From: Candidatus Nitrosopelagicus sp.
Lineage (GTDB): Archaea > Thermoproteota > Nitrososphaeria > Nitrososphaerales > Nitrosopumilaceae
Length of the DNA stretch: 36,784 nucleotides
Direction of reading: 5' to 3'
Assembly (NCBI GenBank): GCA_028345095.1
Contig: JAOMCQ010000010.1
Location: 1 to 36,784 of the forward strand
The notes beneath the pieces were generated by a model. The model made no database searches, was not told the origin of the DNA, and saw only the letters and a program-made list of their open reading frames with translations. The position numbers and the translations under genes were made by a program. Below, piece by piece: positions 24,179 to 26,287 of the stretch (its first letter is position 1; the number at the start of each line of letters is the position of its first letter).

Positions 24179-24187
24179 AATATAAAT
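24179..24187 (-). promoter_or_regulatory. TATA box of hppA
   Basis: Read on the minus strand this is ATTTATATT, 29-37 nt before the hppA ATG. It is one of the best TATA matches in the window and implies a leader of only a few bases. Confidence 0.6.
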
Positions 24188-24567
24188 CAACAAGAGAATT
24201 TAGAAGATTTTCTTTTCTGATATGGATCAAATGCCGTTCCACGCAGCCCCTGACGAACTAATTTGTTGAATCTTTTACCATGACTCAGATAAGGGAAACG
24301 CTGGTGTATAAGTTCATGAACAATTGTATTTTCCAAAGTCTTGTCATCAGGAATTCTTTTTACATTTATGAAAATTGAATTTTGTTCTAAGTACGATACA
24401 CCATAATACTTGTAAGCAGTAGTTCTACGTCCTTCAGTTATTTCCTTTGGAGCTGCCAACACCTCCTTATTTGTAAGAAACACCTGTGGCTCGTCAATTG
24501 AGAATCTTTTTGAATATATTCCTACTTTTTCCAATATTACTAATCGAAGTTCATCATCTAACTTCAT
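24187..24567 (-). CDS. HELIH-type metallopeptidase-like protein (SprT/YgjP-like)
   Basis: A 126-residue protein with zincin motif H84-E-L-I-H88 and a likely third ligand H96 in SHGKRFNKLV, the spacing seen in SprT/YgjP (WLM) metallopeptidases. The N-terminal half has beta strands ending in EQNSIFINVKRIP. The tail is Lys-rich and ends in Cys. Related proteins (Spartan/Wss1) cut DNA-protein crosslinks, while YgjP-like members are less understood. The gene lies downstream of the candidate C/D box RNA and the CoA kinase gene on the same strand. Confidence 0.85.
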   Translation of the reverse strand: MKLDDELRLVILEKVGIYSKRFSIDEPQVFLTNKEVLAAPKEITEGRRTTAYKYYGVSYLEQNSIFINVKRIPDDKTLENTIVHELIHQRFPYLSHGKRFNKLVRQGLRGTAFDPYQKRKSSKFSC

Positions 24568-24633
24568 AGTTGTTTTTGGAGTTTTGTTCTTTATTGGAGA
24601 ATGTCAAATCTTACTTGGTAAATTGTGAAAGAT

Positions 24634-24687
24634 GGTCAGAGTTTAGTGTTGTAATCACAAGTCATACAGCCACCGTCTCATCATCCC
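24634..24687 (-). ncRNA. Candidate archaeal C/D box guide sRNA
   Basis: On the minus strand the spacing is textbook: box C ATGATGA (24684-24678), a 12-nt guide GACGGTGGCTGT, box D' ATGA (24665-24662), a 3-nt spacer CTT, box C' GTGATTA (24658-24652; one mismatch to RUGAUGA), a 12-nt guide CAACACTAAACT, and box D CTGA (24639-24636). GGG and CC flank the ends. Such RNAs guide fibrillarin to 2'-O-methylate rRNA or tRNA opposite the fifth base before D or D'. It begins directly after the stop codon of the CoA kinase gene, so it may be processed from that transcript. Predicted target cores are ACAGCCACCGUC (D') and AGUUUAGUGUUG (D); the target molecules were not identified. Confidence 0.82.
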
Positions 24688-25185
24688 TTATTTCATTTGA
24701 TTTACTATTTTTTGAACTTTGTCTCTTACTGTAGGAGTAATTTCAACAATTACCAATCCTTCATTAGGTTGACCATACATTACTACAGAATTTTCAGGGG
24801 CAAATAGACATACAGGTAAAACCAATAGATCCTCTTCCCCCTCAACAATTAATCGAATTGGAGGTTTTTTAGAAAATATATTTTTTATGAGATCAAAATT
24901 TTCATCTTCAATTTTACCAGGACTATTTTTACAAGTTAATTCAGTAGTTATTGAATTCGCTAACGGTGGAGAACGTTTTTGACGTTTCTCTTGACCATCG
25001 ACTATGTGTAATAATGGAGTTAACCCCATTTGTAAGAGCAATTCGGAAGTTGCGTCACCTACAGTAATTACAATTCTTTCAGAATAAACACTACGAATAT
25101 AATTTTCTTTTTCAGATGAAGAATTAAGAATAAGTTTTCCTAATGGAATTTTTAATTCATTGCGGAGATTTTCAGGTAAAAACAA
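24688..25185 (-). CDS. GTP-dependent dephospho-CoA kinase (DUF359)
   Basis: A 165-residue enzyme that catalyses the last step of archaeal coenzyme A synthesis with GTP. Family segments are LPENLRNELKIPLGKLI at the start, VGDATSELLLQMGLTPLLHIVDGQEKR (phosphate and sugar site), NSPGKIEDE, and VEGEEDLLVLP, then VVMYGQPNEGLVIV. The frame is open further upstream, but that part lies inside the Mrp gene. TTG 25185, four bases after the Mrp stop, gives the normal N-terminus. The candidate C/D RNA follows its stop codon directly. Confidence 0.93.
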   Translation of the reverse strand: MFLPENLRNELKIPLGKLILNSSSEKENYIRSVYSERIVITVGDATSELLLQMGLTPLLHIVDGQEKRQKRSPPLANSITTELTCKNSPGKIEDENFDLIKNIFSKKPPIRLIVEGEEDLLVLPVCLFAPENSVVMYGQPNEGLVIVEITPTVRDKVQKIVNQMK

Positions 25186-25189
25186 GAGA

Positions 25190-26287
25190 CTAATTTGCAG
25201 TTGACTCAGTTTGAGTTTCAGCTCGCATTTCTTCTTGCAATTTTGCTGCAACAATACTACATTGTGCTGCAACATTTTTTGCAGCACTTCTAAATGCATC
25301 AGCACTAGGAGATTCAGTATCAGTCATCATAACAGGTTTACCTAAATCAGAACCTTCCATTATTCCAGAATTAAGTGGAACTTCTCCAAGAAATGGAATA
25401 TTATGTTTTTCACTAATCTTTTTTGCACCACCATTACCAAAAATATAATGTTTGTTAGAACAATCAGGACATGAGAAATAGCTCATATTTTCAACAACAC
25501 CTAATATCGGAACATTAAGTTTATCAAACATACCAATTGCTTTTACTGCAACATTACTTGCAACATCCTGAGGGGTTGTAACAACGAGTATTCCAGTAAT
25601 TGGAATTGTTTGTGCTAATGTCAATGGAATATCACCTGTACCTGGAGGAAGATCAACTATTAGGTAATCAAGATCTGACCAATTAGTATCAACCAAAAAT
25701 TGTTTTAATATTCCAGAGATAATTGGTCCACGATAAATTGCGGCTTGGTGTTCTTGTTCTGCAAAAAATCCAAAAGATACAACTTTAAGATCATTAAAGT
25801 CTGCAGGTTGTAATTTGTTATCCTCAACTTCCATTGCACCATCTTTCATTCCTAACATTAAAGGAATACTTGGGCCATAGATGTCAGCATCAAGTAATCC
25901 TACTTTTGCACCAGTTTGAGATAATGCAAGTGCAAGATTTAGGGAAACAGTAGATTTTCCAACTCCACCTTTACCACTAGCAACTCCAATTACATTTTTG
26001 ACAGTTGCCATTGCTTCATCTGCATCTAGTGAACGACCTTCCATTACTTTTGCAGTAACTTTCATGTCAAAATTTTCAATATCATCAATGTCATCAATAG
26101 CTTTTCTTACATCAGCTTCAATCTCATCATTAAATGGACAAGCGGGTGTTGTTAATTCTAAAGTAAATTTTAGATCACCAGAATTCAATTCTAAATCCTT
26201 AATCATTCCCATAGATACGATATCTTTTTTTAAATCAGGGTCGATTACTGTTGCCAATTTTTCTAATATTTGATCTATTCCTACCAT
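25190..26287 (-). CDS. apbC: Mrp/NBP35-family Fe-S cluster carrier ATPase with N-terminal MIP18 domain
   Basis: A 365-residue P-loop protein. Residues 1-85 form a DUF59/MIP18 domain with TTPACPF (C50). Next comes the deviant Walker A GKGGVGKS (105-112) and LLDADIYGPS, the SIMIBI hallmarks. YLIVDLPPGTGD is Walker B, and the C-P-D-C motif (C273, C276) bridges a labile 4Fe-4S cluster in the dimer. It delivers clusters to apoproteins; in this window NadA is one likely client. A TATA-like element is 22-33 nt before the start. The dephospho-CoA kinase gene follows after four bases. Confidence 0.95.
   Translation of the reverse strand: MVGIDQILEKLATVIDPDLKKDIVSMGMIKDLELNSGDLKFTLELTTPACPFNDEIEADVRKAIDDIDDIENFDMKVTAKVMEGRSLDADEAMATVKNVIGVASGKGGVGKSTVSLNLALALSQTGAKVGLLDADIYGPSIPLMLGMKDGAMEVEDNKLQPADFNDLKVVSFGFFAEQEHQAAIYRGPIISGILKQFLVDTNWSDLDYLIVDLPPGTGDIPLTLAQTIPITGILVVTTPQDVASNVAVKAIGMFDKLNVPILGVVENMSYFSCPDCSNKHYIFGNGGAKKISEKHNIPFLGEVPLNSGIMEGSDLGKPVMMTDTESPSADAFRSAAKNVAAQCSIVAAKLQEEMRAETQTESTAN

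Follow-up and report, generated by a model that had tools for sequence, protein, structure and literature searches.

The minus strand of the window (the whole stretch of DNA that was analysed, 36,784 nucleotides from Candidatus Nitrosopelagicus sp.) contains, at 24634-24687, a complete, genuine and deeply conserved box C/D sRNA gene. We propose, with a probability of roughly 0.87, that this sRNA is carried in the tail of a kinase mRNA and that its D' guide directs 2'-O-methylation of 16S rRNA at the position of E. coli C522, the D guide being without a single selected target. The first-pass annotation, made from the letters of this DNA, had placed a C/D box guide RNA directly after the stop codon of the kinase gene, a reading that both the anatomy and the conservation of the element support.

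Anatomy and neighbourhood of the sRNA gene

Read directly on the minus strand, the boxes, their spacings and the site behind the kinase stop codon are as first described; the set of boxes is complete and spaced as in archaea. The order is TAA-GGG-ATGATGA-GACGGTGGCTGT-ATGA-CTT-GTGATTA-CAACACTAAACT-CTGA-CC, and the element and its neighbours comprise the following features:

24634-24687, minus strand: box C/D sRNA gene, terminal stem to terminal stem
24678-24684, minus strand: box C, ATGATGA, conserved in the alignment
24666-24677, minus strand: D' guide, 12 nt, GACGGTGGCTGT, complementary to the 16S 530 loop UCAGCCGCCGCG
24662-24665, minus strand: box D', ATGA, one mismatch (A for C)
24659-24661, minus strand: spacer CTT, 3 nt, between D' and C'
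24652-24658, minus strand: box C', GTGATTA, one mismatch (T for G)
24640-24651, minus strand: D guide, 12 nt, CAACACTAAACT, differing between genera and without a consistent target
24636-24639, minus strand: box D, CTGA, followed by CC; CTGAC is invariant in the alignment
24688-25215, minus strand: host gene, DUF359 (GTP-dependent dephospho-CoA kinase family), PF04019 match, start codon uncertain
24187-24567, minus strand: downstream gene, SprT-like protein with HELIH motif, Pfam score slightly under the cut-off

The kinase stop codon (TAA) occupies 24690-24688, and box C begins 3 nt after it. The window has a single occurrence of the composite C/D motif, and 100 dinucleotide shuffles gave none. 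A looser scan for C/D elements, with terminal-stem pairing required, recovered the same single element, with none in 20 Markov-simulated windows. The terminal stem consists in the window of two pairs only (GG at 24687-24686 with CC at 24635-24634), and a bulged base, G 24685, directly precedes box C. Over 34 aligned sequences the cells of this stem are 93% paired, the stem being too constant for covariation, and the pair G12-C58 (alignment columns) closes the C/D kink-turn in every sequence of the window's family. Box D' is ATGA in the window and CTGA, the consensus, or TTGA in some relatives. Its A pairs with the U at the sixth base of box C' in 34/34 aligned family sequences. This A-U pair replaces the consensus C-G, so that the two apparent box mismatches match each other; the D'-C' pair is sometimes lost in other families of the order.

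The host gene belongs to DUF359, which we take to be the archaeal dephospho-CoA kinase family. The enzyme that serves as dephospho-CoA kinase in archaea has been identified (PMC6650551). Upstream, the end of an Mrp-like ATPase gene (25190-26287, minus strand) either overlaps the kinase gene or directly adjoins it, and the sRNA may therefore form the end of a longer operon that includes the ATPase gene. Downstream of the sRNA, a conserved stretch of the TTGACATTtcAAGATAAAC type (24560-24615, minus strand) precedes the SprT-like gene by about 40-50 nt. This stretch is kept in nearly all relatives (loci L003-L082), including those in which other sequence has taken the place of what lay further upstream, and is probably the promoter region of the SprT-like gene.

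In the mechanism that we propose, a single transcript would hold the dephospho-CoA kinase message with the sRNA as its 3' tail; L7Ae, Nop5 and fibrillarin would bind the sRNA, and nucleases would then trim it from the mRNA. Boxes C and D would form a kink-turn with the short terminal stem, and C' and D' a k-loop. The D' guide would pair with UCAGCCGCCGCG in the 530 loop of 16S helix 18, and fibrillarin would methylate the 2'-OH of C456 (E. coli C522), the base that faces guide position 5. Transcription, processing, RNP assembly and methylation are all predicted here from sequence. Fibrillarin above the cut-off, with an adjacent Nop5-like reading frame recognised by eye, is present in G108, a genome of the same genus; the window's own genome, 66% complete, gave a weak fibrillarin match and none that was confident. 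Archaeal C/D genes commonly overlap an upstream stop codon, and most lack their own promoter and are processed from longer transcripts (PMC7994747), so release from an mRNA tail, as originally suggested for this element, fits known practice.

Conservation in the order and linkage to the kinase gene

We compared 80 loci fetched by the downstream SprT-like protein, in records named Nitrosopelagicus, Nitrosopumilus, Nitrosarchaeum, Cenarchaeum and relatives. The first-pass annotation had spoken of the genus Nitrosopumilus; the nearest relative of the downstream protein belongs instead to Candidatus Nitrosopelagicus (98% identity). The 23-nt block formed by box C, the D' guide and box D' (RTGATGAGACGGTGGCTGTATGA, where R at the first base is A or G) was unchanged in 76/80 loci: in the same gap of relatives, a comparison proposed at the outset, the boxes are conserved together with the flanking genes. 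As for the exceptions, the block has two changes in Cenarchaeum (L034) and is absent from L061 within the locus sequence examined; the remaining two, which are cut near a contig end or match weakly, are L066, whose sequence starts where the downstream gene starts, and L020, which extends only a little way upstream. Within the family the D' guide hardly varies, while the D guide and the stretch that follows box D drift between genera.

The exact block was found as one copy in 36/300 sampled genomes of the phylum, all of them in the window's family. A covariance model gave a strong match in 34/34 sampled genomes of this family and, among the matches listed, which exclude 20 genomes without a match, in nearly all genomes of three other families of the same order (f2, f3 and f56), of which f3 is probably Nitrososphaeraceae. 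Strong matches amounted to one per genome in four families of the order. Two f2/f3 genomes (G343 and G400) had, among the matches listed, neither a strong sRNA match nor any DUF359 match, so the absence of the sRNA there fits missing sequence. A relaxed C/D pattern occurred in 46/50 sampled genomes of the order, in 0/250 outside it and in none of the reversed controls; the four genomes that it missed belong to genus g9, in whose sequenced members box C reads ATGAGGA. No C/D element was found behind the DUF359 genes of families f57-f69 and other Thermoproteota. Weak model matches in other families (L223-L227) have no kinase nearby and look like chance.

The sRNA stays with the kinase gene. The kinase could be located in 112 loci; in 111 of these the start of box C falls in the range -23 to +28 nt relative to the end of the kinase stop codon. 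The stop codon lies inside box C in six loci, and in six (L034:2735-2763 from Cenarchaeum, L195, L201, L214, L219 and L229) the kinase frame crosses box C and the D' guide to end at the TGA of box D', so that the D' guide is there also coding sequence. Linkage is kept in other families, even with kinase identity down to 30-44%. The SprT-like gene adjoins the sRNA in the window's family only, and in loci where the interval to it is longer or rearranged the sRNA remains beside the kinase. It is conceivable, if unlikely, that an order-wide, vertically inherited sRNA is locked to the kinase gene by a regulatory link that couples decoding-centre modification to CoA synthesis; the kinase neighbourhood would then be more than a convenience of transcription.

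The 16S 530 loop as predicted target

For the D' guide of the window species the best-pairing rRNA site is 16S 452-463, within the 530 loop of helix 18. The duplex has 9 bp including one G.U pair (-16.4 kcal/mol) and is not significant by itself, at least 20 of 200 shuffled guides having stronger sites. We accept the 530 loop as the target because of the comparison of guides between families. All 18 distinct D' guides pair with this site at positions 3-10, and 14 of the 18 also at position 2. The variation at positions 7 and 10, T or C facing a G, preserves the pairing. Positions 1, 11 and 12 hardly vary within the window's family yet are unpaired with 16S, and they gain 530-loop pairs outside this family. 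The guide CGCGGTGGCTGA, found in two f3 genomes, is paired at 12/12 positions with one wobble, and the variants CGCGGUGGCUGA and GACGGUGGCUGU form 12 bp and 9 bp, respectively. The site itself is identical in the 23 relatives read.

Searched against 16S and 23S together, the 530-loop site ranked first in 13 genomes and was tied once. The mean over the 18 guides was -18.4 kcal/mol at the 530 loop, versus -11.4 kcal/mol at the runner-up 16S/23S site. The best of 400 column-permuted guide sets reached -15.4 and none (0/400) equalled the 530-loop score. A target of the D' guide in the 530 loop is, on this predicted pairing, well supported. The N+5 rule points to C456 of this organism's 16S as the methylated base, which we take to be the equivalent of E. 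coli C522, numbering through the universal GUGYCAGC...GCGGUAA motif with G530. Most likely, then, the D' guide steers 2'-O-methylation of the C522 equivalent in the decoding centre.

Of the two methylated bases forecast at first, a C for the D' guide was right in kind, and the 530 loop can now be named as its place; the U for the D guide did not hold up, as this guide drifts and has no consistent rRNA target. Exact complements of the D' guide, proposed earlier as the way to its targets, did not lead there: a search of four related genomes with no or one mismatch returned only the gene itself and one 1-mismatch site in G003. Such a search misses the 530-loop pairing because of the G.U pair and the end mismatches.

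No consistent rRNA site was found across the D guides of relatives, and judging from these guides selection does not hold the D guide to any one rRNA target. An ACCA common to the D guides of most f3 sRNAs (L204-L229) could pair with UGGU of helix 18. With UGGUGU, just 5' of the D' target, the D guides of several f3 genomes form four or five pairs in a single register; the D guide of G108, which is the same as that of the window, forms six. This pairing is short and never the best site, and we set it aside as a weak lead. As a separate observation on the rRNA genes, the 23S matches in L270 (G300) and L272 (G257) span about 3.7 kb, versus about 3.0 kb elsewhere, which suggests an intron or insertion in the 23S gene of these two genomes.

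A conserved pairing with a pseudoknotted loop is also what would be expected if the sRNA were mainly a folding chaperone of the 530 loop in 30S assembly, with methylation incidental or absent, and such roles have been proposed for archaeal C/D sRNAs (PMC7994747 and PMC4644070). We consider this improbable: the boxes, and the distance from guide to box D', are throughout as expected for a methylation guide, and chaperone models usually employ both guides, whereas the D guide here has no consistent target. A kink-turn in the 3' untranslated tail, bound by L7Ae and serving as a cis regulator of the kinase mRNA, its C/D look being secondary, would account for the fixed site directly behind or overlapping the kinase stop codon, and L7Ae binding of mRNA kink-turns has been reported in archaea (PMC5539422). 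Such an element needs neither a conserved guide complementary to 16S nor a C'/D' pair at guide spacing, and we hold it to be very improbable.

There is, in our view, just as small a chance that the D' guide acts on another RNA (a tRNA, another stable RNA or an mRNA), with the 530-loop match as a by-product. The weakness of the window-species duplex when taken alone would agree with this, as would the guide positions 1, 11 and 12 that are fixed in the family without pairing. The 41 tRNAs of G108 were scanned, however, and none offered a comparable pairing (best -11.4 versus -16.4 kcal/mol), and a tRNA target was rejected; no near-exact complement recurs in the four genomes searched, and in other families the D' guides come close to pairing with the 530 loop along their whole length. 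Guidance of 2'-O-methylation at the C522 equivalent remains our preferred reading.

Relation to known guide RNAs

No Rfam family reached its threshold for the window element. The nearest was sR20 (RF01140), with a full-length match of 28.6 bits, under the gathering score of 44 bits; this match arises because the boxes coincide, and the guides differ. In seven relative loci, likewise, no C/D family of Rfam reached the gathering threshold. Our literature search found no report of C522 methylation in archaea and no earlier description of this guide RNA in these archaea. A 2012 survey stated that none of the Thaumarchaeota in its data had annotated snoRNAs (PMC3486863), and the lineage is not mentioned in the main archaeal C/D sRNA papers that we checked. 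Ammonia-oxidizing-type archaea thereby gain a guide RNA family with a named, predicted target in the ribosomal decoding centre. The 18 variants of one guide on an unchanging target moreover show which guide positions are constrained, namely 3-10 of 12.

The sRNA belongs to a known class, the archaeal box C/D guides. It resembles those of Sulfolobus, Pyrococcus, Pyrobaculum, Methanococcus and others in its boxes, its 12-nt guides and its size of 50-60 nt, as well as in the layout of kink-turn and k-loop, the overlap with an upstream stop codon and the rRNA target; it differs from them in having a consistent target for one guide only. Closest in target are the crenarchaeal guides Tte sR114, Pca sR28, Sac sR115 and Iho sR21, which are directed to 16S helix 18, near the decoding centre (PMC4644070). 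Those RNAs are predicted to act through both guides, on the equivalents of E. coli A535 and G515, whereas here C522 would be reached by the D' guide only; the main text of PMC4644070 gives helix-18 sites other than C522, and none in its mesophile. Other archaeal guides are described as fast evolving (PMC7994747), whereas guide and locus are here nearly fixed over an order. It is this constancy that is unusual: against the usual fast turnover of guides, a C/D guide and its host gene have stayed together across families despite the divergence of the kinase.
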